64,000 nucleotides of DNA. Origin: a virus. The stretch lies in IMG/VR virus record IMGVR_UViG_3300024503_000015, positions 142,182 through 206,181 of that record; one strand, written 5' to 3'. Below the pieces are notes generated by a model. The model made no database searches, was not told the origin of the DNA, and worked only from the letters and a program-made list of their open reading frames with translations. How positions within the stretch are numbered: position 1 is the stretch's first letter; each line of letters starts with the position of its first letter. The position numbers and the translations under genes are program-made. Of the stretch, positions 8,899-22,293 are shown piece after piece.

Positions 8899-9347
8899 GA
8901 AACCTCAGACTTGCCTTCGGCAATCTTTTTAACATTAATAAATCCAGCACCTCTATCTGACATATCGATGCCCTCTTCGCTGGCTACATTTTTGCATAGT
9001 TCTCTAAACCAACGATCCACAATTTCTTCATCAGGATCGCCATCAAATCCATAACCCGCTTGTTTTAATTGTACTACAAATTCATCGTTCCAGTCAATCT
9101 CGAAGAAACCATTCTTTAAGTTATCTTTATTGACATGTGTCTCCAAAACAGCGACCCAAGGTTCTCCTTTGGCTGTAGCACGGTCTTTTGGAGTCATTTT
9201 AGCCAATTCTTCTTCGCGTTTGGCTACTGCTTCTTTGGCTGTTGCTTCTTCAGCACGGGCAAGTGCTTCTGCACGTTCTTTTTCTAGACGTTCTTTTTCT
9301 GCTTCTAATTTGTCTATGCCAAATAATTTTTTAATAATTGCTTTCAT
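8895..9347 (-). CDS. coiled-coil conserved phage protein, 150 aa
   Basis: Unknown function. Residues ~10-55 form a charged Glu/Lys/Ala coiled coil; the C-terminal domain is acidic and contains EEGIDMSDRGAGFINV. Similar proteins are in my memory of cyanophage genomes. The ATG at 9347 is chosen because GGGGGAAAC precedes it; the longer frame to 9437 would run inside the upstream oxygenase gene. It overlaps that gene by 17 bases and rnh by 4. Confidence 0.8.
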   Translation of the reverse strand: MKAIIKKLFGIDKLEAEKERLEKERAEALARAEEATAKEAVAKREEELAKMTPKDRATAKGEPWVAVLETHVNKDNLKNGFFEIDWNDEFVVQLKQAGYGFDGDPDEEIVDRWFRELCKNVASEEGIDMSDRGAGFINVKKIAEGKSEVS

Positions 9348-10014
9348 GTTTCCCCCATACCCGCGATTGCGGATAAAAAAATGCGTTTTCGTTTTGCCCC
9401 ATATCCCAAATAATACTGCCCATTGTATTTCTTTCATTTAGTGGCAACGATTGAATAAAAGTATTTGTACTATAACGAACACCTTTAGTTATTGGTTTAA
9501 CTTCGTGTACCCAAAGAGGATCTGCTGGAAAAATCATAGCATCTCCTTTATTCAATTTAACTTCGTATCTGCCATTCCAAAAAGTAAATTCGCCACCTTC
9601 ATAGTCGTCATTTAATGAAATAGTACAACTGGCGTGAATCATTTCCTCCCAATCCACATGAGGATGTATCCATTCGCCGACTTCGTATTTCATAAGTCGG
9701 TGCATGTGGGAAAATCTTAAAGATTTTTTTAATGCTGTAGTGTGAAACGCTTTAAACTCTTCTAGATATGTTATCCAATCTTCGATAATTTTATTTGTAT
9801 GATTATGTACTACTAAAAAGTTTTCTGTATCAGGAATTAACTCTACTCTTTTAAAAGTAGAAGTAGTCATTTTATTAGTTACGGCGTGTATGCAACTTTC
9901 TTGAACCGCACTGGCAGAACGCAATTCGTATTCGTCAATTAACGAATTGCATTGGTCTTCTGTTAATGCGTTTCTAACAACAAAAATTAAATCGGATAAC
10001 TTTATATCTTCCAT
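9331..10014 (-). CDS. 2-oxoglutarate/Fe(II)-dependent oxygenase (prolyl-4-hydroxylase type)
   Basis: 227 residues. Iron ligands H119 and D121 (HVD), distal H170 (WVHEV), and R180 for 2-oxoglutarate binding give the full HxD...H...R set of the double-stranded beta-helix fold. Such oxygenases are frequent in marine T4-like phages; the substrate is unknown (protein, nucleic acid or small molecule). It abuts queE, so a role in a base-modification pathway is possible but unproven. Confidence 0.88.
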   Translation of the reverse strand: MEDIKLSDLIFVVRNALTEDQCNSLIDEYELRSASAVQESCIHAVTNKMTTSTFKRVELIPDTENFLVVHNHTNKIIEDWITYLEEFKAFHTTALKKSLRFSHMHRLMKYEVGEWIHPHVDWEEMIHASCTISLNDDYEGGEFTFWNGRYEVKLNKGDAMIFPADPLWVHEVKPITKGVRYSTNTFIQSLPLNERNTMGSIIWDMGQNENAFFYPQSRVWGKHESNY

Positions 10015-10878
10015 TTATGTTCCCCACTCATTTTTAAAGAGTGGAACTTGTAATCTATCGCTGTAGCGTAAACCGTTTTTCATTGCTAGTTCCGCTACAC
10101 GCCTGTTGTTAAGAGTATAGACACTTTCAACGCCACCCACGGGCATAAGATATATAGGACCGGTAAAACCATTTTCTCTATAAATGTCAGCAGTTTCAAT
10201 TGCTTCCTCCGCATCTTCTTCTGTGGCCACTACAAATTTAAGATATGTATGACCGTATTCTTCGTATTCACAAACTACGTCTGGACGAATTGCTTCGTGA
10301 CGTTCTTCACCGGAGCAACTTAATTTAGCACTAACACTAAATGTAACTTCTCGCCAAAAATCTTTATCGCTGTGATATTTCCATGTGTGCAGATATTGCT
10401 TGAACTCGTCGGTGAGTTTTTGAGTACCATTCGTTTCAAATGTAATCTCTTTTAAGTTTGTCATTTTTGGATGGTCGAGCAAGTCTGGATACGCTCGTTG
10501 CCATCCAAGCAAAGGTTCCCCTCCGGTAATGACCAAGTGTTCGTCTCGCCATTCGTTGAAGGGTAGAATCTCTGCGATCCTGTCTGCGATGGCGTCTGAA
10601 GTGAGCATTGGACTAAGATCCTTAAAGCGAGGATCCCAACTAGCATAACTATCACAGCCCGTAGATACCAAAGGAAGTTCTTCATATTTTTTATATGGGG
10701 TTCGTTCATGTTGGATTGCAATATCTTCAACTTCTGTACTTAGTTCACCTTTTGGTAATCCAAAGCCAGCACATTTAAAGTTACAACCAAATGTTCTCAA
10801 GAAAACAGACGGTACACCCATGTAACGTCCTTCGCCTTGAATACTATAAAATAATTCTGCAATTTTTAATTTGCTCAT
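10015..10878 (-). CDS. queE: 7-carboxy-7-deazaguanine synthase (QueE), radical SAM
   Basis: Converts 6-carboxy-tetrahydropterin to 7-carboxy-7-deazaguanine (CDG) with a [4Fe-4S] cluster and SAM. 287 residues, longer than many bacterial QueE. The start FYSIQGEGRYMG is the family signature, and TGGEP (118-122) is the SAM-binding motif. Cluster cysteines appear as C32 and C36, with the next candidate at C75 (STGCDSY), so the usual compact CxxxCxxC pattern is broken by an insert. It overlaps its upstream neighbour by 4 bases and shares the region with folE, a queD homologue and a TGT-like gene. Confidence 0.9.
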   Translation of the reverse strand: MSKLKIAELFYSIQGEGRYMGVPSVFLRTFGCNFKCAGFGLPKGELSTEVEDIAIQHERTPYKKYEELPLVSTGCDSYASWDPRFKDLSPMLTSDAIADRIAEILPFNEWRDEHLVITGGEPLLGWQRAYPDLLDHPKMTNLKEITFETNGTQKLTDEFKQYLHTWKYHSDKDFWREVTFSVSAKLSCSGEERHEAIRPDVVCEYEEYGHTYLKFVVATEEDAEEAIETADIYRENGFTGPIYLMPVGGVESVYTLNNRRVAELAMKNGLRYSDRLQVPLFKNEWGT

Positions 10879-11339
10879 ATACAGTCACCTTGTTCTGCCA
10901 GTTTACTGGCGCTTGATTTTTCTTTACCTGCTTGTCTAAACAGTTTAACATCTTTAATTGCAGATTTCAATGTTTCGGCATAATTCAGTGCCTGTTGTTC
11001 AGTCATAGAAATAGTTGTTTCAACGGTCACTGCACCAGTTGTCCAAAGTTGCCAAGTTACTTTCAAACGAGTCCATAGCCCATTAATTAAATCTTTAACA
11101 AACCAATCAATCTCTTGTAGATACGGACTATCAATATCGTATCTTTTTTCAACTAGTTCAGACCAATAATCAGTTTTAGCAGTTGCGTAAATGTTTACAT
11201 TAATACCAGTCTCACTAGATTCAACTTCTACATTGTGATCGTGATACTCTTGCCCGCAACCGCAGACAATTTGATAAAACTTAGTGTCGCCAAAGTCACT
11301 GCGTTTTAGAATTCCTTCTGCTGGTTGCTCTAATTTCAT
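10875..11339 (-). CDS. conserved phage protein, 154 aa
   Basis: Function unknown. It contains an N-terminal VCGCGQEYHDH segment that could bind a metal, and a C-terminal amphipathic region (MTEQQALNYAETLKSAIKDVK). I recall related proteins in T4-like cyanophages. It is embedded in the folE-to-queE run with 4-base overlaps on both sides, so it is co-translated with the deazaguanine genes, but no function follows from that. Confidence 0.75.
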   Translation of the reverse strand: MKLEQPAEGILKRSDFGDTKFYQIVCGCGQEYHDHNVEVESSETGINVNIYATAKTDYWSELVEKRYDIDSPYLQEIDWFVKDLINGLWTRLKVTWQLWTTGAVTVETTISMTEQQALNYAETLKSAIKDVKLFRQAGKEKSSASKLAEQGDCI

Positions 11340-11656
11340 TGTTTGAACATCTCTAAGTTAATAATTTTAGCAACACGCTCGCCAATATCTTCTCCGTTAG
11401 GAATCACATAAGTTTGACTTTCGTGTCTATCTTTACGGTCATCGTAGTGTCTTACATTTAAAATTTTACCACCGACGGCGGTGCTTAATTCGAAAGTGAT
11501 TCGTCCTTCACCTTCTGCACGACCGCGTTCTATTGCTTGTGCTGTTCCGATTGCCAATTTATACTCTCTTTCTTTCATAGTTGCTTCTTCGTACTTGTGT
11601 CGATTATCCCACATATCGCGGACTTTTCCATACAACCATTTATCGACAAAATTCAT
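11336..11656 (-). CDS. hypothetical protein, 106 aa
   Basis: Not recognised. Charged N-terminus (MNFVDKWLYGKVRDMWDNRHKYEE) followed by a region likely to be mixed alpha/beta. Start at 11656 chosen because its ATGA overlaps the upstream stop and GGAG lies 8 bases before it. Confidence 0.72.
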   Translation of the reverse strand: MNFVDKWLYGKVRDMWDNRHKYEEATMKEREYKLAIGTAQAIERGRAEGEGRITFELSTAVGGKILNVRHYDDRKDRHESQTYVIPNGEDIGERVAKIINLEMFKQ

Positions 11657-11868
11657 TTGCATGTCTCCAACCATTTATCAAGAATATTTACAGCATCATT
11701 GAAATCGATACCATATACTTCTGCACTGATAACATTGTCTTTGATTTGTATATCAAACGGAACAGTTCCGTTAAATCGAAAATCTTCGGGAACATCTGTC
11801 TCTACAATATACTTGTGTAGATTTTTTGCTCTATTAATTAAATTAGTCGCCATGTCTACTGAATTCAT
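11653..11868 (-). CDS. hypothetical protein, 71 aa
   Basis: Not recognised; small acidic soluble protein. It sits directly after folE with an ATGA overlap, so it is translated from the folE transcript. Confidence 0.7.
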   Translation of the reverse strand: MNSVDMATNLINRAKNLHKYIVETDVPEDFRFNGTVPFDIQIKDNVISAEVYGIDFNDAVNILDKWLETCK

Positions 11869-12563
11869 CTTGGTGCAAACTCCTGTTGTAGTTTAATGTT
11901 ATCAAAGAACTCTTTCTTTGTACCAGCATCGTCTTTGAACGCACCTTTAAGTACAGTAGTTTGAGTTAATGAACTATGTGCCATAATGCCACGATTCTCA
12001 CAGCATCCATGAACTGCCTGAATATAAACGCCAATATCACTTGCGCCAGTGGCCTTTTCAATTTCTCTGGCTATGTCGTTACACAATTCTTCCTGTAAGG
12101 TACCACGACGAGCGCACCATTGCGCGATTCGTGTGTATTTTGACAGCCCAATGAGTTTTTGGGCGGCGATGATTCCGATGTAGGCAACACCAGAAACAGG
12201 CTGATGATGATGACTACACATACTACGAAGCTCACTCCTAACCACCAACATACCCTCATAACGATCTTCGCTATCGTTAGGAAACGCTGTTGCATCTGGT
12301 GCTGGTTCATATCTTCCTGCCATTATTTCGTTAAAGTACATTTTTGCTAATCGTTTCGCTGTACCGTGCGAGTTAGGATCTGTCTCTCTGTCAATAAGAA
12401 GTTTGTCTAAAACACTTTCAAATGCCTCAGTTGCTTCTTTGATTAGTTGTTCTTTGACTAGATCAGATTCGATGTATTCGCTGATGTTATCTCCTGCCCA
12501 GAATCTTTTTCCGTCTAGGACCATCTTTTCGCGAATCGCTTGTGCTAAATTTTTTTCTGACAT
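11865..12563 (-). CDS. folE: GTP cyclohydrolase I (FolE)
   Basis: Opens GTP to dihydroneopterin triphosphate, the first step to both folate and 7-deazaguanine. 232 residues. Zinc ligands fit the family: C116 and H119 in CSHHHQPV, and C187 in VHGCCENRGI; LIGLSKYTRI is the other hallmark block. It starts its own transcript from a near-consensus promoter 38-66 bases upstream, with CGGAG before the ATG and a 6-bp hairpin in the leader. Given queE, a queD homologue and a TGT-like gene nearby, deazaguanine synthesis is the more likely use than folate. Confidence 0.95.
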   Translation of the reverse strand: MSEKNLAQAIREKMVLDGKRFWAGDNISEYIESDLVKEQLIKEATEAFESVLDKLLIDRETDPNSHGTAKRLAKMYFNEIMAGRYEPAPDATAFPNDSEDRYEGMLVVRSELRSMCSHHHQPVSGVAYIGIIAAQKLIGLSKYTRIAQWCARRGTLQEELCNDIAREIEKATGASDIGVYIQAVHGCCENRGIMAHSSLTQTTVLKGAFKDDAGTKKEFFDNIKLQQEFAPR

Positions 12564-12577
12564 TATTTCTCCGAGTT

Positions 12578-12595
12578 ATAGACGAGGATGTCTAT
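12578..12595 (-). promoter_or_regulatory. small leader hairpin of folE
   Basis: ATAGAC, 6-base loop, GTCTAT between the promoter and the SD of folE. It could be an operator or an RNA stabiliser; no known riboswitch (such as a preQ1 or pterin fold) is recognisable. Confidence 0.35.
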
Positions 12596-12600
12596 GTAAT

Positions 12601-12629
12601 ATAATATAGTTTATTTAGGTTTTTGTCAA
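12601..12629 (-). promoter_or_regulatory. sigma70-type promoter of folE
   Basis: Minus strand: TTGACA at 12629-12624, 17 bp, TATTAT at 12606-12601 (an overlapping TATATT is also possible). It directs transcription into folE and probably on through queE, the oxygenase and rnh. Confidence 0.85.
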
Positions 12630-12842
12630 CTAAGTGCGTATACTTTTCTTATCAATATGTTGTTGTTCATATCGTAATCTACGGCATTCTTCCCTGACTG
12701 TATTAGGGATATCAGGATGCCATTCTGCCATCCCGCAATCATAGATGCGAGTTTGACTACCGTAATCGGTAAAAATAAGAATAAGCACAGCCGCTATTAA
12801 AGCGACTGCGGCTGTAATCTTTCCGATAATAGTATCCGACAT
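12630..12842 (-). CDS. small membrane-anchored protein, 70 aa
   Basis: One N-terminal transmembrane helix (about 9-24), then a short domain IYDCGMAEWHPDIPNTVREECRRLR. A similar YDC...EECRRLR motif recurs in small phage proteins I remember, without known function. AAGGA SD; overlaps the upstream gene by 46 bases. It is the last gene before the folE promoter. Confidence 0.78.
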   Translation of the reverse strand: MSDTIIGKITAAVALIAAVLILIFTDYGSQTRIYDCGMAEWHPDIPNTVREECRRLRYEQQHIDKKSIRT

Positions 12843-13030
12843 AAGTCAGCATCCTTTTTTGATTTGAATGTAAATTTCATGTAGTCGTGTTGTGGATGAC
12901 TTTCGTATCTTCCGCCAGGTAGGCCAAATACTTCGAGCACCATGGCGCAAGTTTCATTCCACCAAAAACCTGATTGCCCGTCCCAATGGACGTAGATATT
13001 ATTCTGATCTTCCACTGGTGCAACTATCAT
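12797..13030 (-). CDS. hypothetical protein, 77 aa
   Basis: Not recognised. Trp/Gly-rich N-terminal half (YVHWDGQSGFWWNETC). Overlaps its neighbours on both sides by 32-46 bases. Coding status rests on codon pattern and position. Confidence 0.7.
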   Translation of the reverse strand: MIVAPVEDQNNIYVHWDGQSGFWWNETCAMVLEVFGLPGGRYESHPQHDYMKFTFKSKKDADLCRILLSERLQPQSL

Positions 13031-13199
13031 TCCAAAGTTCTTGTGCTCTGCGCTTATAGTCTTCTAATTCCCACACGGCTAATTTTTCACGAAATACTTC
13101 TTCGCTTAATCCGTGCCAGCCGATACAGTCTCCTGTAGGACTACGACCACAACCGCAAGTTCCAATTTTCTTTCCTTCTTCAGGTACTCTTACTTGCAT
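12999..13199 (-). CDS. small Cys/His protein with a CDGSH-like motif, 66 aa
   Basis: The segment TCGCGRSPTGDCIGWHGL has C-x-C, then C-x-G-x-H, resembling the CDGSH iron-sulfur signature but with one residue fewer between the second and third cysteines and no CDGSH core. It may bind an Fe-S cluster or zinc. The ATG at 13199 is preferred over an in-frame start at 13262, which lies in the HIT gene. It overlaps the HIT gene by 20 bases. Confidence 0.75.
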   Translation of the reverse strand: MQVRVPEEGKKIGTCGCGRSPTGDCIGWHGLSEEVFREKLAVWELEDYKRRAQELWNDSCTSGRSE

Positions 13200-13563
13200 T
13201 TTTATAATTTCCTTTACTTGGTATAACGTGACGAACCCCGCCACGAGGGTCTTCCATATCACCCTTGCGTCTAGGGATCATGTGTATATGAGGATACATT
13301 ACTGTTTGGCCAGCAGTCTCGCCACAGTTTTGTCCGACATTAAAAGCGTCCCAACGTTCAGATTGGACACCATCGAACCCGAACTTGTATGCTCCTTTGA
13401 AACATTCGACGATGTTGGTAAAACGTTCATAGGTTGGCACAAAAAGCAAATGTCCTTCCGTAACTGGGTAGGCATCGTTGAAGACCCAATAGTCTTTTGT
13501 TCTGTACTCGATACTAGTCCATGGTGCTCTGCGTTCATCTAGTGCCCTTTCTAAATCAGTCAT
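13180..13563 (-). CDS. HIT-family (histidine triad) nucleotide hydrolase/transferase
   Basis: 127 residues. The C-terminal block GQNCGETAGQTV, then PHIHMIPRR (H92, H94), fits the HIT fold, with the first histidine of the usual triad replaced. HIT proteins act on nucleotide phosphoramidates or dinucleoside polyphosphates. The ATGA start overlaps the stop of the phosphoribosyltransferase gene. Substrate not predictable; a link to nucleotide turnover in this block is an inference. Confidence 0.85.
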   Translation of the reverse strand: MTDLERALDERRAPWTSIEYRTKDYWVFNDAYPVTEGHLLFVPTYERFTNIVECFKGAYKFGFDGVQSERWDAFNVGQNCGETAGQTVMYPHIHMIPRRKGDMEDPRGGVRHVIPSKGNYKNASKST

Positions 13564-14111
13564 AACCAAAATTCTTCCCAAGGATAAACAAGCCAACAAT
13601 CTTCTTGTCGCTTGTCTACGGTCCAAACATGATAGTCTGGATCTTTAAACTCACTGCCGTAATTATGTGTTAATACAGCAAAACGAACATTGTCTCCCCA
13701 TACTTGATTCCATGCTTCATCGTTAGGAAAACAACCACTGGGCCAATCTTTCTTAATCCAATTAAGAGTAGATCCTTGATCGTTAATATCGTCTACAATT
13801 AAGATTTTCTTTTTAAGACGTTCTAAATGTTTGTGATCGCCCCAAATGTGCCTTTCGTCATTGGGAACAACTCCCAAGGCATCTTCGGCCATCCAAAGAT
13901 TACTTTCGCAATCGTTTTTATTATCGCGAAGGCTGACATTAAGTGTGTGCATCTTAATGCCAGTATATTGACTTAGTAAGTTAGCCGGAACAAGACCACC
14001 GCGTGTAATACCTACAATATAGTCAGGCCTCCAATTATGTTCAGACATTTGGCGAGCAATTTCTAAACATGCGCCTTCAACTTGTGACCAACTGTAGTAT
14101 ACTTTCTTCAT
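13560..14111 (-). CDS. phosphoribosyltransferase (purine PRTase type I)
   Basis: 183 residues. The PRPP-binding motif ILIVDDINDQGST (about 103-115) and the N-terminal VGITRGGLVPA loop are typical of type I PRTases of the hypoxanthine/xanthine-guanine class. It would convert a free base and PRPP into a nucleotide. The start at 14111 overlaps the upstream stop as ATGA. Its place between queE/folE and the queD/TGT genes makes salvage of a purine or deazapurine base an attractive but unproven role. Confidence 0.88.
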   Translation of the reverse strand: MKKVYYSWSQVEGACLEIARQMSEHNWRPDYIVGITRGGLVPANLLSQYTGIKMHTLNVSLRDNKNDCESNLWMAEDALGVVPNDERHIWGDHKHLERLKKKILIVDDINDQGSTLNWIKKDWPSGCFPNDEAWNQVWGDNVRFAVLTHNYGSEFKDPDYHVWTVDKRQEDCWLVYPWEEFWL

Positions 14112-14338
14112 GCAGTTAACCCATAGGCCAATGATTGACATTCTTCTTTAGTCATAAAGAAATTATAAGTTTGTGTACCAACAACTTCACCGTCTTTAAG
14201 ACTTTCTTGAACCATATCGATACTAAACAAACCTTTAGGGCTTAGTACTTCGTGTTTCTTTAATGTTAGCCTAAAACCGGCGTGTTCTTTGACAACCATT
14301 TCTTTATAAGTATCTCTAACTGATTCATGTAGTTCCAT
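14108..14338 (-). CDS. hypothetical protein, 76 aa
   Basis: Not recognised. Of three consecutive ATGs the last (14338) has GGAG at ideal spacing. Small charged protein with a LTLKKHEVLSPKGLFSIDMV middle; no motif. Confidence 0.7.
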   Translation of the reverse strand: MELHESVRDTYKEMVVKEHAGFRLTLKKHEVLSPKGLFSIDMVQESLKDGEVVGTQTYNFFMTKEECQSLAYGLTA

Positions 14339-14777
14339 CATCATCTCCTTTAATTGCGTCCCACGTTCTATATTTGGCTAATGCCTTAATATAGTCATCA
14401 TACATCTTTTTTAACTTTGGATGCTTCTTTTCTAGTTTAACATCTCGCTCGGGAATTTGCAAGACTTTTTCAATTGTGTTTAACCTTTCTTCTAGGTCAA
14501 CACCATTTAATACCATTCGACCTTTAACTTCTAACTCCGGTGGATCGTTTTTGGCAACCATCACCGGATTGGTAGTAGGATTAGCCCAAGTTACATTTGT
14601 ACCTGTAGTATAAGTTAACGGCACAGATGTAGTGCCGGCTCCGGTTGAAATCGTATATCCACTGCCAGAGCCGCCTGTGCCGTTCGATACTAAAACACTA
14701 CCTGAACCGGCACCGGAACCTGCTATGCCGCCGGCTGTATTAAGTATTACGCTTCCGTGATTGTAAGTATAGCTCAT
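14325..14777 (-). CDS. Gly/Ser-rich protein with helical C-terminal domain, 150 aa
   Basis: Residues 1-70 are low-complexity Gly/Ser/Thr (fibre- or linker-like). Residues 78-150 (PPELEVKGRMVLNGVDLEERL onwards) form a charged helical domain that I recall at the ends of small proteins in marine phage contigs. Possibly a minor virion or accessory protein; function unknown. Overlaps the cupin gene by 38 bases. Confidence 0.75.
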   Translation of the reverse strand: MSYTYNHGSVILNTAGGIAGSGAGSGSVLVSNGTGGSGSGYTISTGAGTTSVPLTYTTGTNVTWANPTTNPVMVAKNDPPELEVKGRMVLNGVDLEERLNTIEKVLQIPERDVKLEKKHPKLKKMYDDYIKALAKYRTWDAIKGDDDGTT

Positions 14778-15195
14778 TTGGTATCCATTTATTATTAACG
14801 AGAAATCCCCATTCTCTCTTTTGCGGACCTGGCATAAAAAGTGTCCAACACTCTACGTTGGGATCAATTTCAATTCTATGAAAACTGTTGGCACTACAAA
14901 TTCTAAAGTGTCCAGGCTTTCTCCATTTGGCAATTTCACAGACCTTTACTCCCTGGCTGTTAAATTGAGGAATCCATTCCCAATAGCCACCTTTTAGAAT
15001 AAGTGTGGCATAAGGCCATGGGTGATCATGCACATCATCTGGATCACCTTTATGAAACTTGTGTAAGAATACATTAAATGGAAACCATTTACGATCCTTT
15101 AAAAATAGATAATAACGTGTAAGTAACGGCTCGTCACAGGTACGATCCATAATAATACGCTTGCGACCGAGACGTTCTAACAGTTTTAATATCAT
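14740..15195 (-). CDS. cupin-fold protein
   Basis: 151 residues. HDHPWPYATLILKGGYWE, and later SFHRIE, give the His/Glu pattern of the cupin metal site; the closing REWGF...W is typical of a phage-encoded cupin family I recall. Catalytic role unknown (oxygenase, isomerase or binding protein). It overlaps the glycosyltransferase gene by 4 bases; a sugar or base substrate is only a guess from context. Confidence 0.7.
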   Translation of the reverse strand: MILKLLERLGRKRIIMDRTCDEPLLTRYYLFLKDRKWFPFNVFLHKFHKGDPDDVHDHPWPYATLILKGGYWEWIPQFNSQGVKVCEIAKWRKPGHFRICSANSFHRIEIDPNVECWTLFMPGPQKREWGFLVNNKWIPNELYLQSRKRNT

Positions 15196-16265
15196 ACAAG
15201 TCTTTCTAAGAGTCCATTTGCAGAAAAGAAATTTTCAGTTAAGTCTTGAGTTTGTTTTCTAAGTTGTGGTAAAAACTTTTCATAGTTATCCATATACTGG
15301 ATAATCTTTGCACATATTTCTGGACGGTGTGCTTTATATGCTTCGAAACTTTCAGTCCATTCACTAGGATACTTAAAAGTATCATAGCCCATTTCACTGT
15401 AACTAAGTCTATCTGGCACCATAGGAATAGCATCTACAACAGCGCCTTCATACCAACTAATCCCTAATGTCTCTTGTAAGTTTGCAGAGAACACTAATTT
15501 CGATTCGCCTAACAAGTTATGATATTCATTTTTTGTTAGTTGTTGATCCTGACAGACTACGAACTCGTACTGTGGCAAGTGTTCTTTTAAATCTCTAAAA
15601 ATTTCAACTTGCTTCTCGGGTGCGATGCGATGAGGGAAAAGAATTAAATCACGTTTTTTCATCCCTTTATATGGAGTTAATGTATCTTCCATATACTCCA
15701 TTGGCCAACCTGTGCGTACAATTTTTCCTTTATCGATATATGATGCTTTTGCAGTATCGTAATCTATGTTTAAAAGATTATGACAAAACATTTCAATATG
15801 GAATGTTGTAGCAAAGTAGTTATGATCTATAGCATGAAAGAAACTCTTTTCAGCATTTCTGACCCAAGGAGCATCGCCAATTAGACGACCTAAAAAGTCC
15901 TGTGGATCGTAACTACCGGCATGCCATAGTGCGTGAATAGTTACAGGAATCTGTAACAGTTCACTCATATACTTTAGGTTGATGATACCAGGGTGCCAAG
16001 CATCAGTAAAGATGAAGTGATCATTAGGAGCCACTGATCCGGCGCAAAACAACCTACCCATTTGCTCAACTTGAGCAGACTTGTATATATTGGTGCCACC
16101 AAAATTAAGAAAAGCACCAGGAGTAGTGGCTGAAGGAATATCCGTAGGCCCAGATAAAACTTGAACATCGTGTCCTCTCTTTCTCAGGATAGCCGGTAGG
16201 TGGGTCTTCCACTGCGCTGTATAGCGTGTTTCTACCGGCTCAAGGTCTACTAAGTAGACGGTCAT
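15192..16265 (-). CDS. GT-B fold glycosyltransferase (GT4-like)
   Basis: 357 residues. The C-terminal half carries HRIAPEKQ (about 212-219) and the E-x7-E motif (E265...E273 in ETLGISWYE), which bind the nucleotide-sugar in GT4 enzymes; the N-terminal half is the acceptor domain. Sugar and acceptor are unknown. It is not close to the T4 alpha- or beta-glucosyltransferases by eye. Its place inside the deazaguanine/oxidoreductase block suggests a decorating role on DNA base, capsid or a small molecule. Confidence 0.82.
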   Translation of the reverse strand: MTVYLVDLEPVETRYTAQWKTHLPAILRKRGHDVQVLSGPTDIPSATTPGAFLNFGGTNIYKSAQVEQMGRLFCAGSVAPNDHFIFTDAWHPGIINLKYMSELLQIPVTIHALWHAGSYDPQDFLGRLIGDAPWVRNAEKSFFHAIDHNYFATTFHIEMFCHNLLNIDYDTAKASYIDKGKIVRTGWPMEYMEDTLTPYKGMKKRDLILFPHRIAPEKQVEIFRDLKEHLPQYEFVVCQDQQLTKNEYHNLLGESKLVFSANLQETLGISWYEGAVVDAIPMVPDRLSYSEMGYDTFKYPSEWTESFEAYKAHRPEICAKIIQYMDNYEKFLPQLRKQTQDLTENFFSANGLLERLV

Positions 16266-16495
16266 TGGCGACCATTCCTGTAGTTGTTATTGTACCCGTT
16301 GTTATTACGGGGACGATTTTCAAATCGTCTGTCGTTGTTATAACGACGAGGACGCTTAGACGCCTCGTAAGCCTGCCAAGTTTTACTTTGGCGGTTATAC
16401 AAGTCTGCCTCATTGTAAGGCAGAAGGTTGAATCTGCAAAAATCTAGCAGATTGTCAAGATCGTCAAAAATTTGAACGACTTCTTTTTTCATCAT
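16262..16495 (-). CDS. small Asn/Arg-rich-tailed protein, 77 aa
   Basis: N-terminal helix (VVQIFDDLDNLLDFCRF) and a disordered tail of Arg, Asn and Tyr that may contact nucleic acid. Similar small proteins occur in T4-like phages from memory. Overlaps the glycosyltransferase start by 4 bases. Confidence 0.75.
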   Translation of the reverse strand: MMKKEVVQIFDDLDNLLDFCRFNLLPYNEADLYNRQSKTWQAYEASKRPRRYNNDRRFENRPRNNNGYNNNYRNGRQ

Positions 16496-16503
16496 TGTTT
16501 CCT

Positions 16504-16899
16504 TTAGTATTTGATGAATGAACCATTTTCTCCGTCTTCGGAGACCTCAATCCAAATCTCGCGATTTGGATACTTCTTGCTAATGATGTCATGTAATTCG
16601 TCAGACATCATTTCACAACTCTTGTAGTCAAGGCTTATAGTGGCACCTTGACCATTATACAACGACTCGAGCCATCGTTTGAATTGGATGAATTCGATGT
16701 CCCTGTCATTGTGTTGCACACTGATCCACACCCTGAAATGAAAGATGTGGCGATGAGGGTGACCCAAAAACGATACGTCATATTCGTCTCCTGTTGCTAG
16801 ATTAGGATCTGTTAGTGCCGCAGGATACTTATGGATACCTTCTTTGCGGAAAGTTACCCAGATCATTTTGTTTGGTCTAATGTCTTGTTTGATAATCAT
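16504..16899 (-). CDS. queD: QueD / 6-pyruvoyl-tetrahydropterin synthase homologue
   Basis: 131 residues, the usual length of QueD (T-fold). A hand alignment to the family places the zinc histidines at H23, H49 and H51 (HRH, in place of HGH), the IEF..FK block (IDF..LK in QueD), the CE of the PTSE helix, and the closing IEVSEDGENGSFIKY. The usual catalytic Cys before the HGH motif is not visible, so activity may be altered. QueD would make 6-carboxy-tetrahydropterin for QueE. The start overlaps the upstream stop as ATGA. Confidence 0.7.
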   Translation of the reverse strand: MIIKQDIRPNKMIWVTFRKEGIHKYPAALTDPNLATGDEYDVSFLGHPHRHIFHFRVWISVQHNDRDIEFIQFKRWLESLYNGQGATISLDYKSCEMMSDELHDIISKKYPNREIWIEVSEDGENGSFIKY

Positions 16900-17435
16900 G
16901 TTGGTGTATCTTGAGTGTACAAATCCCAATGAGTATACTTGTCTTTAGTCATTAGGCTTTGTAAATGATGTGTCCACACACCTGGATTTGTAGCACCCCA
17001 AGTTCGGTCATCCAGTTTGAGTGTGGCATTGTAGTTGAGTTGATTAATGTAGGGTAACTTGACACTAATCATAGGTACAAACTTGGGATATTCGTTATAA
17101 GCAGACTCTAGTACGCCTTCGATGTGTTCAACACCAAAGTCTAGAGCTACCCAATAGCCTGCTTTTAGACAGCCTATAATAACTTCGTCCCATGCTTTGT
17201 ATTCTTCGTGTGAAATACTTTTAGGATTAAAACTTTGACTAGTGCCAAAGTAAATTTGTTTAATGCGTTTGTTTTCGTCTAAGTATGCTTGTGTGTCACC
17301 AGCAATACGTAGTATTTCTTCTAGCGGAGGAGTGCCTACTACAAATAGTGTATACATACCATAGCAAATAGTATGTTCGACTTCGTAGCCTGTAAAGTAG
17401 ACAATGTCTTGTCTTTCTTCAGTGTTTAATCCCAT
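16896..17435 (-). CDS. conserved phage protein, 179 aa
   Basis: Unknown function. Blocks FFTGYEVEHTICYGMYTLFV (approximate), IYFGTSQSFNP and ISVKLPYINQLNYNAT strongly recall a hypothetical protein found beside queD-like genes in T4-like phages. The alternation of beta and alpha segments would suit a TIM-barrel-like fold. It is inserted between the MDR dehydrogenase and queD-like genes with short overlaps. Confidence 0.75.
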   Translation of the reverse strand: MGLNTEERQDIVYFTGYEVEHTICYGMYTLFVVGTPPLEEILRIAGDTQAYLDENKRIKQIYFGTSQSFNPKSISHEEYKAWDEVIIGCLKAGYWVALDFGVEHIEGVLESAYNEYPKFVPMISVKLPYINQLNYNATLKLDDRTWGATNPGVWTHHLQSLMTKDKYTHWDLYTQDTPT

Positions 17436-18316
17436 TTAATATAACCTCTGCTATAACCATTTGGACGATCCACACCATCCGCAAATGCTTGTTGCCATTC
17501 TGTGTTACGATTATAACCTTTTGTCCAGAAAGAATCAACCTCTAGTTTACCGTTTTCAATCATCCAACGTGCTTCAAACATAGCACCAATAAATTCTTCT
17601 GTTCTTGGACTTGGTTTAACTGTAGTAACAGCCTTCCAAAGTTGTTGTTGTGCTTCTTCTTTACTTACTGCTTTACCAACAGCATCAATGATTACTGCAT
17701 TGTTATTTAGATTAATGTCGGTACCTAGTTGATATTTTCCAGATAAATCTACTATCAAATCGTAACTGTCGGTAGTACCTAACAGTAACGCATCTCCCCA
17801 AAGTTCCTGATTACTAGAACCTAGTACATCTACTTCAAGTTCTGGAAAATGATGTGCCAGGTTATTAAAAACTACCCATGCAAGGAAACCACTACCTAGG
17901 ATTAAGCATTTACCATTTTGTCTACGTTCAAAAAGAGTATACGCTTGTCTAATACAGTTAACACCACAGGCCACTGGTTCTAAAATGTAACGTGGATGTA
18001 GTTCTAAAACTGTTACAAACTCACCGTCACGACAGTTGTAATAATCTGCGTATGCTGGTTCGCCGCGGGTAGCAACATAATCGCCTACTTTAACACCTAA
18101 TACACTGGCACCGACTTTAGTTACGATTCCTAGACCTTCGTGACCTTGCATGTGTAGTGGTAAAGGTCCAAAGTTGCCCTGCATCATATCTATGTCACTG
18201 CGACATACACCAGTCATAACTGCTTTAACTTCAATTTCAGTTGACGTAGGTTCTGGCTTTGCATATTCTACTTCTTCAAAGTAACCTTGTCCAGTTGTTT
18301 GTAGACAGCGTGTCAT
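17426..18316 (-). CDS. zinc-type medium-chain dehydrogenase/reductase
   Basis: 296 residues. C38 (GVCRSD) and GHE (58-60) give the catalytic zinc site of the MDR family, and a Rossmann block (ILGSGFLAW) follows near the middle. Substrate unknown: an alcohol, aldehyde or sugar. The ATG at 18316 overlaps the Gfo/Idh/MocA stop as ATGA, so the two oxidoreductases are coupled and may catalyse successive steps. Confidence 0.87.
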   Translation of the reverse strand: MTRCLQTTGQGYFEEVEYAKPEPTSTEIEVKAVMTGVCRSDIDMMQGNFGPLPLHMQGHEGLGIVTKVGASVLGVKVGDYVATRGEPAYADYYNCRDGEFVTVLELHPRYILEPVACGVNCIRQAYTLFERRQNGKCLILGSGFLAWVVFNNLAHHFPELEVDVLGSSNQELWGDALLLGTTDSYDLIVDLSGKYQLGTDINLNNNAVIIDAVGKAVSKEEAQQQLWKAVTTVKPSPRTEEFIGAMFEARWMIENGKLEVDSFWTKGYNRNTEWQQAFADGVDRPNGYSRGYIKWD

Positions 18317-19191
18317 AGTTTTTCTATTCTTTCGTGTATCCAAAGGTCAATTTCTAACTGTACTTTCCAGTACTCGTCATTATTTAGGTTTTCTACAGCA
18401 TCTTTAATCATATTTAGGTACGCTTCTTCTGGACACCAGCCTAACTCAAATACATCTTTGGTATTATCTTGATTAATAAATGTAATAGCACTACGTTCAA
18501 CAGTCATACTGCGCCAGTTAGCACGGCAGTTCCATTTAGAACCAAATCCAATGTGACACTGGTCGTCTACATCATAAGTTCCATTTGGGTTTACAGTACC
18601 ATACTCTGTGCTTTCGATATCTTTTAACAGCCATGATTGTATAGATGATTCGCCGTTAACTTTTTCTATGCGCCAGTCTGGATGTAGTGCAATATACAAA
18701 CTTAATAAGTGTGGCATTAAGTCCCTACTAACTCCGCCAAATGCTAGTTTGCGTGTAGTAAACCAACTACCTGGGCTAGGAATACAGTTCTTTCTAATCC
18801 ATTCGATGTCTACATTCTTTGCTACTTTAGCCTTTTCCTGTAATTCTGCAATATTGTCACGCCACATATTATTTTTAACCATCATAAATCGTGTGCGTGG
18901 AAATCTTTTACATAATTTAGCCCATTCGTTTCTATTAATCAGTCCAGGCTTTTCAATAAAGACAATTTTACTGATAGGAGCCAGTTTAACGGCTAATTCT
19001 AAATGCGTAAAATTTGGTGTGCAAATATGTACGGTGTCAAAAGACCCGTGAAGTAATATGGCTGGTTCTATACTAGGGAAGTCGGCATTTTTATTAATGT
19101 CTGTATCGACAGTACAAACTTCATAACCTAATTGAGTTAGGACAGATTTATATAACTGTCCTATTCCCATTCCTACAACTAAACTTTTCAT
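18313..19191 (-). CDS. Gfo/Idh/MocA-family oxidoreductase
   Basis: 292 residues. The N-terminal dinucleotide fold GMGIG (7-11) and EKP motif (E80-K81-P82) identify the family, which oxidises or reduces sugars and cyclitols with NAD(P). With the glycosyltransferase and MDR genes nearby it may help make a sugar or sugar-like group. No structural evidence for the substrate. Confidence 0.87.
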   Translation of the reverse strand: MKSLVVGMGIGQLYKSVLTQLGYEVCTVDTDINKNADFPSIEPAILLHGSFDTVHICTPNFTHLELAVKLAPISKIVFIEKPGLINRNEWAKLCKRFPRTRFMMVKNNMWRDNIAELQEKAKVAKNVDIEWIRKNCIPSPGSWFTTRKLAFGGVSRDLMPHLLSLYIALHPDWRIEKVNGESSIQSWLLKDIESTEYGTVNPNGTYDVDDQCHIGFGSKWNCRANWRSMTVERSAITFINQDNTKDVFELGWCPEEAYLNMIKDAVENLNNDEYWKVQLEIDLWIHERIEKL

Positions 19192-19445
19192 CTATATGTT
19201 GGTAGTTCGTTAACACATTTAATAAGAGATCCGGATTGTTTGCCCGCTAATTGATGTAGCGCATAATCCGGAGAGGATACACAGGCTTCGTGCCCATTGA
19301 ATTTATCTGCTAGGGCAATGGTGTTGCCAGTTTCTGCAAATTTAATTACAAGATAGTAGTCGTTTGGACCCACGGCATCTGCCGTTTTATAAAACAAACC
19401 AAAACTTAATACTGCTAAAACACCAATGCCTAGTAGTTTTTTCAT
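19188..19445 (-). CDS. small exported protein, 85 aa
   Basis: Signal peptide (MKKLLGIGVLAVLSFGLFYKTADA) with a likely cleavage after ADA. The mature ~60 residues contain two cysteines (positions ~51 and 77) that may form a disulfide. Unknown function; being secreted, it acts in the periplasm, unusual between cytoplasmic enzymes. It overlaps the TGT-like gene by 4 bases. Confidence 0.78.
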   Translation of the reverse strand: MKKLLGIGVLAVLSFGLFYKTADAVGPNDYYLVIKFAETGNTIALADKFNGHEACVSSPDYALHQLAGKQSGSLIKCVNELPTYR

Positions 19446-20989
19446 TTTACGCCTTCTTCGAGTTCGTCAAGTTTAGCAATTTCATCATCGGTAAATTCTT
19501 CACCGTGCTCTAATTGTACACTCTCTTCCTCTACTTCGTCAAACAGTTTGGCAAATTGTGTACTTGCGTTTACAGTCTTCTTACCTACTGCTCCGCGAGT
19601 TCCAATAATACTTTGCCAAAATTTATTATACTCTTCAACGACTTTGTCTGCTTCTGCACGACTACTAGTAGCAAAAATGGCTTCTACTACATCTTTAAAG
19701 AATAGTCTATCAAACCGTTCTTCTACTAACATAGCAGGAACAATGCCCAAATCGTATTGACGATTGGCTTCTTGTACAGCATTAATGTGCATCCAAACAT
19801 TATGGCCCATTAAGATAGCGTAACTAAAACTATCCCACGAAGTTTTACCTTCCTTGCCAATCTTGTTTAGATCCCCGGGCCCGTAAATACAAACATCTTT
19901 AATTTGAACCCCGTCAATAATTGGACTATTGTCAAAGTTTTTAAAATGTCCGTCCTGTACTACTGCATCGCGGAATAGTCTAGTATCTTTACTATATTTT
20001 TTATTATCGATACTAGGTAACATTCTATATACCCACTTAGTTCTGTCTTGTGTTTCTGTTTGAACGTATACTTGTCCGTTTGCAGTTGCTAAGAATGGAC
20101 TAGCACAGTCGAAACTAATTGTAAAGTTAGGATTGTGATACTTGCGTACAGCACGTTGAATGTCTGTTAATAAACAAGCCCACTCTAATTTACTAGTACC
20201 TAAGAAGTGCATCCAGTCTTGTTTGCCCTGTTCAAGTAATCCGTCAAATCGTAATGCTACTAGGCGTTTTAATACCAAGTGTACATCACACATATTCTGA
20301 CCACCCATGGCCCAACCGTTAAATGCACGGTCACCGTAGACAGTAGGATCGCAGTACTTCTTCATTCGGTCATACCAATCGTCTGCATCGGTATGATTTT
20401 CACCTTGGAGAACGTTTAAGAATTTACAATTACCATTGCGATTGTTTACAAACCAATCGTTGTTAATGTAAGTACCTTGAACTGCTTCTGCGTATGTAGT
20501 AATGCCTGTGGCTTTTTGTCCAGCAGGGCTACGAGCTACCCAAGCAGGGATATCAAGACACATACCATAGTCCATTAGACTATCCATCCACTTAAGAACC
20601 TGTTCACGTTTCTTTTGTGCTTTAGGACAGTTGGGATTCTTCCAATCGCCTTCCCATACACCTTTACCAATTTGGAAACCACCGGAGTCGCCTAGTACCC
20701 AACTAGTACTGCGATCTCTATTACGAAACATATCTTCGCTGTGATCAACTTTGTTAAGGTCTAGATTAGCATGACCTGCACTATACAAGCAGTGGTCATA
20801 GTAGAACGCACCTTTTTCCGGTTCTAAGTAGTTTAGACTTTCTACTCCGTTTTTAAAACTAGCAGGAACTCTTGCCGGATCAACATAGTTTCCATATCTT
20901 TGTTTACCTATAAAGGTACTATAGAAACCGCTAGTTGCCGGCAAAAAGTATGCGTAGTCGTTTTGTGTTGCGGTTAAATTTTTATTCAT
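19442..20989 (-). CDS. TGT/DpdA-like (deaza)guanine transglycosylase
   Basis: 515 residues. DSGGFQ (101-106, D101 the general base of tRNA-guanine transglycosylases), NVLQGE (~192-197), FNGWAMGGQ (~223-231), HFLGTS and ISFDCASP (D294, where the nucleophilic Asp lies in TGT) follow the TGT order. The C-terminal Cys3-His zinc site of bacterial TGT is not visible, and an extra C-terminal ~170 residues follow. Together with folE, queE and a queD homologue in the same phage block, this favours a DpdA-type enzyme that exchanges guanine for a 7-deazaguanine in DNA. A tRNA substrate cannot be excluded. Confidence 0.8.
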   Translation of the reverse strand: MNKNLTATQNDYAYFLPATSGFYSTFIGKQRYGNYVDPARVPASFKNGVESLNYLEPEKGAFYYDHCLYSAGHANLDLNKVDHSEDMFRNRDRSTSWVLGDSGGFQIGKGVWEGDWKNPNCPKAQKKREQVLKWMDSLMDYGMCLDIPAWVARSPAGQKATGITTYAEAVQGTYINNDWFVNNRNGNCKFLNVLQGENHTDADDWYDRMKKYCDPTVYGDRAFNGWAMGGQNMCDVHLVLKRLVALRFDGLLEQGKQDWMHFLGTSKLEWACLLTDIQRAVRKYHNPNFTISFDCASPFLATANGQVYVQTETQDRTKWVYRMLPSIDNKKYSKDTRLFRDAVVQDGHFKNFDNSPIIDGVQIKDVCIYGPGDLNKIGKEGKTSWDSFSYAILMGHNVWMHINAVQEANRQYDLGIVPAMLVEERFDRLFFKDVVEAIFATSSRAEADKVVEEYNKFWQSIIGTRGAVGKKTVNASTQFAKLFDEVEEESVQLEHGEEFTDDEIAKLDELEEGVK

Positions 20990-21558: not shown

Positions 21559-22293
21559 TTATTTGCTCTGTGCTGGCAAGATGTAATCATATACAGCAAC
21601 ACCGCTGTCAACAGTAATCTGCATAGCACCTGCATCTGCAATCTTCATAGTAATATTACCATCGAGATTTAAAATGCTTTGTACTTGTGCAACAGGCCAT
21701 GACCATGTGTGCTTTAACTTGCCGCCAACATCGTGTTGGAATACAAAAGAACCTGCGTGTGTACTTGCATCACCGAAGAAGAATACAAGATTGTTATCTT
21801 CTGTACGAACTTGGAAAACAGTTTCTTCACTGTGTGCCGCACTTTGTAACTTCAAACGACCAATTGCCGCCATGCTTGGTTCAAACTCAACTTCCCATGT
21901 TGCACCTTTGAACTTAACAGATTTTAGTTTTTCGTTAATAAGTTCTGATGCCATGAAACGATAATCGTTTTGGAAGTCACCTGCTTGGTTTTCAAAGTGC
22001 AAACCTACTGGAACTGTGTTGCCGTTACGTTCCGCAGTAACTACATCGATCTTTGCGTTTTCTTTATACTCTGGATTCTTCAAGTGAAGATTTAACTTGT
22101 CCAAGTTTGGCATACCAAATGTGCCATCAAACTCTGATACTGGCTTGTGTGCAGTAGCAGTAACAATAACGCTACGATCCTCTGCCATTGATTCGATAGT
22201 TGTGCTATCTTTAGCACCTGTAATTTTTACCAAAGGCAAAAAGCCTAGGCTATGTGTATGTGCTACGATGTCGGTTAGAATATCTTTAATCAT
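21559..22293 (-). CDS. 45: DNA polymerase sliding clamp (T4 gp45)
   Basis: 244 residues, near T4 gp45 (228). The block FGMPNLDKLNLHLKNPEY is a gp45 hallmark, and the pattern of alternating beta strands suits a trimeric clamp. It tethers gp43 to DNA and in T4 also activates late transcription through gp33/gp55 (neither visible here). It has its own promoter and a good SD (AAGGAG). Polymerase lies immediately upstream and clamp-loader gp44 ~24 kb away in the window. Confidence 0.88.
   Translation of the reverse strand: MIKDILTDIVAHTHSLGFLPLVKITGAKDSTTIESMAEDRSVIVTATAHKPVSEFDGTFGMPNLDKLNLHLKNPEYKENAKIDVVTAERNGNTVPVGLHFENQAGDFQNDYRFMASELINEKLKSVKFKGATWEVEFEPSMAAIGRLKLQSAAHSEETVFQVRTEDNNLVFFFGDASTHAGSFVFQHDVGGKLKHTWSWPVAQVQSILNLDGNITMKIADAGAMQITVDSGVAVYDYILPAQSK

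Follow-up and report, generated by a model that had tools for sequence, protein, structure and literature searches.

The gene block described here finds some of its closest counterparts in the DpdA systems of phages 9g, CAjan, and nt-1, in which FolE, QueD, QueE, and a protein of the tRNA-guanine transglycosylase (TGT) superfamily are encoded in one cluster (Hutinet et al., 2019, PMC6884629). The modification of CAjan DNA requires dpdA, and dPreQ0, dADG, and dG+ occur at low levels in the DNA of nt-1 (PMC6884629). Our block is located in a window of 64,000 nucleotides, i.e., bases 142182-206181 of a virus record of 270,181 bases (IMG/VR record IMGVR_UViG_3300024503_000015), and its dpdA-like gene is found near DNA polymerase and clamp genes, as in 9g. 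In contrast to the 9g, CAjan, and nt-1 systems, the window phage has no full-length QueC and no QueF, and carries instead a paralogue of QueD and a GT4-type glycosyltransferase (GT). Systems of this kind are known, and the present one departs from them in three respects: its DpdA belongs to a diverged family, a paralogue of QueD replaces QueC, and a GT is always part of the block.

A system for the synthesis and incorporation of deazaguanine has already been predicted in the jumbo phage PA5oct (PMC7824862), which encodes homologues of the window DpdA, QueD paralogue, GT, and QueE; the accessible part of that account does not discuss the GT, the QueD paralogue, or the end product. The window has a GC content of 39% and no tRNA genes were found in it, and its polymerase, clamp-like gene, DpdA, and exonuclease are 33-52% like those of PA5oct-like Pseudomonas jumbo phages. 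The lineage is common: the three most inclusive scans of viral contigs gave at least 599 matches apiece.

The FolE, QueE, QueD-fold, and TGT-like genes, which a first-pass annotation of the window had placed in one overlapping block, were all recovered where it had located them, on the minus strand. From position 20989 down to 13180, the block runs on a single strand, with neighboring genes overlapping by 4-67 bases and one gap of 8 bases. The core genes lie on the same strand in all 130 loci with enough flank (over 6 kb of sequence on the downstream side of dpdA), and this recurrence indicates that the arrangement is not due to chance. We consider it very probable that the block encodes a 7-deazaguanine modification of phage DNA, and probable that the base in DNA lies off the QueC branch, being 7-deazaguanine or 7-carboxy-7-deazaguanine (CDG); for both statements jointly, the GT step excluded, we estimate a probability of roughly 0.7. 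The DpdA-type modification proposed by the first-pass annotation is well supported by the TGT fold, the catalytic Asp residues, the missing zinc motif, and the linkage. That annotation did not recognize that the paralogue replaces QueC in many phages, nor that the GT is a regular member of the block. The restriction and CRISPR systems that are effective against a phage depend on its base modifications, and the present prediction is directly testable in the cultured relatives PA5oct, MIJ3, and ACP17; the publication on MIJ3 contains no modification data.

A diverged DpdA-type transglycosylase

The TGT-like protein contains the motifs DSGGFQ and ISFDCASP, and yet it matched nothing in Pfam, PHROGs, or NCBIfam; a search with PF01702 gave no match above the cut-off anywhere in the record. 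Profile searches of PDB sequences with the alignments of this protein and of the QueD paralogue yielded nothing useful, and for this reason we used structure prediction for both. An AlphaFold2 model built from 41 sequences of the window lineage (pLDDT 82.7, pTM 0.81) was compared with the PDB using Foldseek, and the ten matches at E ≤ 1e-3 were all tRNA-guanine transglycosylases (best E 7e-7), revealing the TIM-barrel fold of the TGTs in the predicted structure. In a library of viral structures, the model matched DpdA2 of nt-1 (E 2e-9) and a TGT of Motura (E 2.6e-10).

The profile of the window family was aligned by hhalign to DpdA2 with an E value of 1.4e-5 and to bacterial TGT with 5.7e-4, the best values among column-shuffled controls (n = 40) being 0.019 and 0.056, respectively. 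By profile, the protein thus appears nearer to DpdA2 than to TGT, and no similarity to the DpdA of 9g (DpdA1) was detectable by the same method (E 0.15). DpdA2, the type found in nt-1, KVP40, ACP17, and X1, is the best counterpart of the window DpdA in both profile and fold, and ACP17 and X1 also share the QueD paralogue and the GT with the window; the window protein is, however, longer and stands in a family of its own, which is absent from PHROGs. With the window DpdA as query, tblastn did not reach nt-1 (DpdA2, YP_008125322). Single-protein patterns derived from the DpdA of X1, PA5oct, and the Vibrio phage 2.275.O matched no viral contigs. In 2.275.O, a member of the window family is encoded together with QueF, QueC, FolE, and QueE, which also speaks for a guanine transglycosylase. 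The block adds a diverged family of transglycosylases that standard annotation libraries miss.

The alignment with the E. coli TGT pairs the DSGGFQ, LQG, GG, FLG, and FDC motifs, and the equivalents of the catalytic residues D89 and D264 of the E. coli enzyme are D101 and D294. These two residues and D146 are invariant in the 58 sequences of the family, the most distant of which are about 30% identical. None of the 58 has the CxCxxC zinc motif of the tRNA-acting enzymes, which is present in 11 of 11 TGTs. This lack and the profile comparison speak against a tRNA-acting TGT.

The QueD paralogue and the QueC branch

The gene that the first-pass annotation took for a QueD homologue is only partly that. 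Its predicted model has E. coli QueD as the top PDB match (Foldseek E 4e-4, TM 0.61), so that the fold stands, but the function does not, since the catalytic residues are lost and the genuine QueD is encoded 3.4 kb outside the window (G000:C1:209577-210104; PF01242, 93.9 bits). In QueD, three His residues bind zinc, a Glu holds the pterin or guanine edge, and a Cys and an Asp-His pair are catalytic. The zinc His residues (H23, H49, and H51) and a substrate-type Glu (E121) are invariant in the paralogue alignment, and the catalytic Cys before HGH and the Asp-His pair, which the record's genuine QueD does have, are absent from it. The paralogue matched none of the QueD/PTPS models of Pfam, and the family that it matches in PHROGs is annotated as function-unassigned. 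Of 22 records that were either related or included for comparison, 19 have a true QueD.

The paralogue is present in all 130 loci and in 11 cultured phages that fall into three transglycosylase groups: PA5oct and Phosso have a transglycosylase of the window type; ACP17, X1, and BUCT-ZZ01 have DpdA2; and phiST, RHph_I1_18, MA9V-3, D479, Ahp1, and, weakly, Bakedbeans have a short TGT-like protein of the phiST type, which we label DpdA3 as a mere guess. By profile, the phiST-type set shows no significant similarity to TGT. In the Vibrio phage Bakedbeans (L374:7212-8363) and the Chryseobacterium phage MA9V-3 (L377:7464-8345), the paralogue makes up the C-terminal portion of a larger protein, whose N-terminal part in MA9V-3 resembles an HNH-type endonuclease by eye and has no family match.

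The first-pass annotation had noted that QueC is absent from the window, which we confirmed, and a search of the rest of the record found a weak PP-loop relative of QueC and no QueF. When whole records were searched, full-length QueC (171-191 bits) was found in 9g, nt-1, 2.275.O, and PhiXhv-12, all four of which lack the paralogue, and in none of the 11 paralogue-bearing phages, although D479 (32.8 bits) and X1 (16.2 bits) gave partial matches; a related contig (G010) also gave a partial match of 23.3 bits. The paralogue and full-length QueC are thus mutually exclusive in the phages examined (11 vs. 4), an exclusion to which we attach no probability because these phages are not a random sample. 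The guess of the first-pass annotation that the pathway may end in something other than preQ0 gains support from the paralogue and from the lack of a full-length QueC, and the block supports a QueC-free route to 7-deazaguanine DNA in 11 cultured phages.

The paralogue probably substitutes for QueC in using CDG, which is thereby diverted, and the best candidate role, which we hold to be somewhat better than an even guess, is the decarboxylation of CDG to 7-deazaguanine. DpdL reportedly is a 7-carboxy-7-deazaguanine decarboxylase of phages with dDG or dCDG in their DNA, and the paralogue (phrog_17812) is probably of the DpdL type. Those phages reportedly show the role and the gene company expected for the family of the paralogue, including the lack of QueC, and are not known to carry a GT.

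We infer a pathway in which FolE, the QueD encoded outside the window, and QueE would make CDG, and the QueD paralogue would draw it off the QueC/preQ0 branch, most likely by a zinc-dependent decarboxylation that yields 7-deazaguanine. After replication, DpdA would swap guanine in the phage DNA for this base by the TGT mechanism, with Asp294 as the putative nucleophile and Asp101 as the putative acid/base. The GT4-type enzyme could then transfer a sugar to the exchanged base or to a group close by, and the modified DNA would be protected from restriction.

The glycosyltransferase and rival explanations

The GT alignment keeps R213, E217-K218, and E273 in 28 of 28 sequences and E265 in 27, E265 and E273 forming the EX7E motif; these residues are characteristic of GT4 enzymes with the GT-B fold. 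The window protein matched no Pfam model, those of the T4 enzymes included, and only weakly a GT4 enzyme of the PDB (E 0.04); its homologue in X1 matches Glycos_transf_1 (PF00534) with an E value of 8e-12. The gene is found in each of the 130 DpdA loci, within the block and overlapping its neighbors, and in 20 of 20 whole records, a set picked for DpdA or the paralogue. By tblastn, we located the GT in 20 phage records, of which 16 have the paralogue (11 PA5oct-like phages, two ACP17, Phosso, X1, and BUCT-ZZ01) and the remaining four are PhiXhv/Erwinia Ep032 phages. In PhiXhv-12, the GT is flanked by a Gat-QueC with a PIG-L deacetylase and by a Gfo/Idh/MocA oxidoreductase, with an acetyltransferase nearby. 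The GT therefore accompanies two different 7-deazaguanine routes, and the block nominates it as a constant partner of the deazaguanine system.

Two observations concern related phages. The run of genes at L353:3328-11755 of the Xanthomonas phage PhiXhv-12 resembles a sugar-decorated archaeosine-type pathway; DpdA2 was not matched in this phage, by a search run without a positive control. BUCT-ZZ01 has a second GT-like gene (L103:7388-8731; Glyco_trans_1_4, 24.6 bits, below the cut-off) between FolE and DpdA2.

The idea of a phage glycosyltransferase that acts on modified DNA is shared with the alpha-GT and beta-GT of T4, which act on hydroxymethylcytosine (PMC13216743, accessible part). Unlike T4, the window phage has no evident dCMP hydroxymethylase: the single PF00303 protein of the record is a true thymidylate synthase, and thus a T4-like hydroxymethylcytosine substrate for the GT is not evident. 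PF00303 proteins were not found in ACP17, X1, or BUCT-ZZ01 either, and a hydroxymethyl-pyrimidine was rejected as the GT substrate.

That the GT acts on modified DNA is in our judgment slightly short of an even chance. Somewhat more tentatively, we propose for this freshwater jumbo-phage lineage that the GT4 enzyme adds a sugar to 7-deazaguanine or CDG borne by the DNA, with tailoring by the Gfo/Idh/MocA-type oxidoreductase and an alcohol dehydrogenase (ADH)-like protein in some lineages. We know of no precedent for a glycosylated 7-deazaguanine DNA base, and a literature search on glycosylated deazaguanine and DpdL turned up nothing relevant among the papers listed; if true, such a base would represent a type of hypermodified DNA that is new to us, reached through a diverged DpdA family.

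Several points weigh against our interpretation. Its support is wholly computational, Pfam offers no model that would connect the DpdA with TGT, and decarboxylation leans on the reported assignment of DpdL. The phages with the GT are often related jumbo phages, so that the linkage counts overstate independence, and the record, an IMG/VR contig, may be incomplete. Regarding the GT step, an ordinary O-glycosyltransferase would find no hydroxyl on 7-deazaguanine; CDG does offer a carboxylate, so that decarboxylation and glycosylation at the same position fit poorly. The GT could use the carboxylate of CDG in DNA as acceptor, form a C- or N-glycoside, or have its target elsewhere.

The missing hydroxyl also favors the strongest alternative, which competes with the GT step only, i.e., that the base is undecorated 7-deazaguanine or CDG and that the GT, Gfo, and ADH proteins have nothing to do with DNA and change the host surface or some other molecule. 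Glycosyltransferases for surface sugars are frequent in phages, according to the accessible part of the PA5oct account (PMC7824862), and phiST, RHph_I1_18, and MA9V-3 carry the paralogue with no GT nearby. Against it stand the constant position of the GT inside the block and the fact that it follows DpdA2 (ACP17, X1, and BUCT-ZZ01) and Gat-QueC (PhiXhv-12) as well. We regard this alternative as a serious contender, about as plausible as glycosylation of the DNA-borne base itself.

It is unlikely that the pathway ends in preQ0 or one of its derivatives, with the QueC activity supplied by the host or by a PP-loop protein of 199 aa encoded far from the block (L082:1069-1668, about G000:36.8-37.4 kb). 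This protein, the sole QueC-like match in the record, carries SGGLDS and CGRCDTC, is related to QueC/TilS, and matches phrog_1550 ("QueC-like") with an E value of 1e-18; moreover, many hosts make preQ0, and in 2.275.O a DpdA of the window family is grouped with QueC, QueF, FolE, QueE, and a PF02592-type transporter. Nevertheless, it reaches just 18.7 bits with PF06508 (cut-off 22) and 21 bits with TIGR00364 (cut-off 150), aligns in its C-terminal part only, and is missing from most relatives; we rejected it as a full-length QueC. The exclusion between the paralogue and full-length QueC, together with the lack of QueF in the record, also argues for a base off the QueC branch.

The purine phosphoribosyltransferase (PRT) of the block invites another explanation, that it makes a nucleotide which enters DNA through the polymerase as a dNTP, DpdA being minor. 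The PRT gene is present in 73 of the 94 blocks that are complete to QueE, and it adjoins QueE in BUCT-ZZ01. The gene is, however, absent from about one fifth of the complete blocks, every one of which has DpdA; the recycling of guanine released by DpdA, a role that the PRT may have, would explain a guanine-type enzyme equally well; and the requirement for dpdA in CAjan (PMC6884629) points in the same direction, so that we consider this route very improbable. Still slightly less probable is that the TGT-like protein, which does share the fold of the tRNA-acting TGTs, modifies tRNA and the genes boost host queuosine, given its missing zinc motif, its profile nearer to DpdA2, the location of dpdA beside a clamp-like gene in 124 of 130 loci (as the 9g dpdA lies beside polymerase and clamp genes), and a record without QueF.

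Other genes of the block

The features of the block are collected in Table 1.

Table 1. Genes of the block and its flank, in window coordinates.
Feature	Position	Strand	Basis
Sliding-clamp-like protein (context only)	21559..22293	-	phrog_12062; upstream of dpdA
DpdA-type DNA guanine transglycosylase, diverged family, 515 aa	19442..20989	-	Fold, profile, catalytic D101 (DSGGFQ) and D294 (ISFDC)
Gfo/Idh/MocA-type oxidoreductase, accessory	18313..19191	-	PF01408, E 1.9e-5
Zinc ADH-like oxidoreductase, accessory partner of Gfo	17426..18328	-	PF08240, E 5e-12
DUF179 (label coined here), conserved 179-aa protein	16896..17435	-	Constant block member
QueD paralogue, probable DpdL-type CDG decarboxylase	16504..16899	-	phrog_17812; fold, residues, gene company
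GT4-type (GT-B, retaining) glycosyltransferase, candidate decorator of 7-deazaguanine	15192..16265	-	Motifs, homologue, linkage
Small cupin-like protein ("cysteine dioxygenase" in PHROGs)	14740..15195	-	phrog_4786, E 5e-35
Purine (xanthine/guanine-type) PRT	13560..14141	-	PF00156, E 2e-13
FolE, GTP cyclohydrolase I	11865..12563	-	PF01227 (GTP_cyclohydroI), E 1.4e-38, 132.6 bits
QueE, CDG synthase (radical SAM)	10015..10878	-	phrog_2076 ("QueE-like"), E 2e-54

The protein that we call DUF179 is encoded in 129 of the 130 loci and has a counterpart in ACP17 (gp122); it has no family match, and a profile search of PDB sequences with its alignment gave none. It is possibly a missing enzyme of the pathway. 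The PRT scored 47 bits with a xanthine PRT model, below the cut-off, and the cupin-like protein is present in 77 of the 94 complete blocks. The Gfo and ADH genes are found in 31 of the 130 loci each, and the Gfo/Idh/MocA-type oxidoreductase possibly acts on a sugar.

A 2OG-Fe(II) oxygenase gene (phrog_61, 9331-10014) directly follows QueE in the window phage; we dropped it as a core member because the neighborhood table of the relatives has no relative of it beside the block. The clamp-like gene adjoins the DNA polymerase gene (22348-25017), and a Phosso gene annotated as sliding clamp matches the profile of the window clamp-like protein. In QueE, an insertion displaces the third Cys of the CX3CX2C motif and stretches it to C32-x3-C36-x38-C75, and the three Cys residues are kept in all 32 aligned sequences. 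The same stretched motif is found in BUCT-ZZ01 and 2.275.O.

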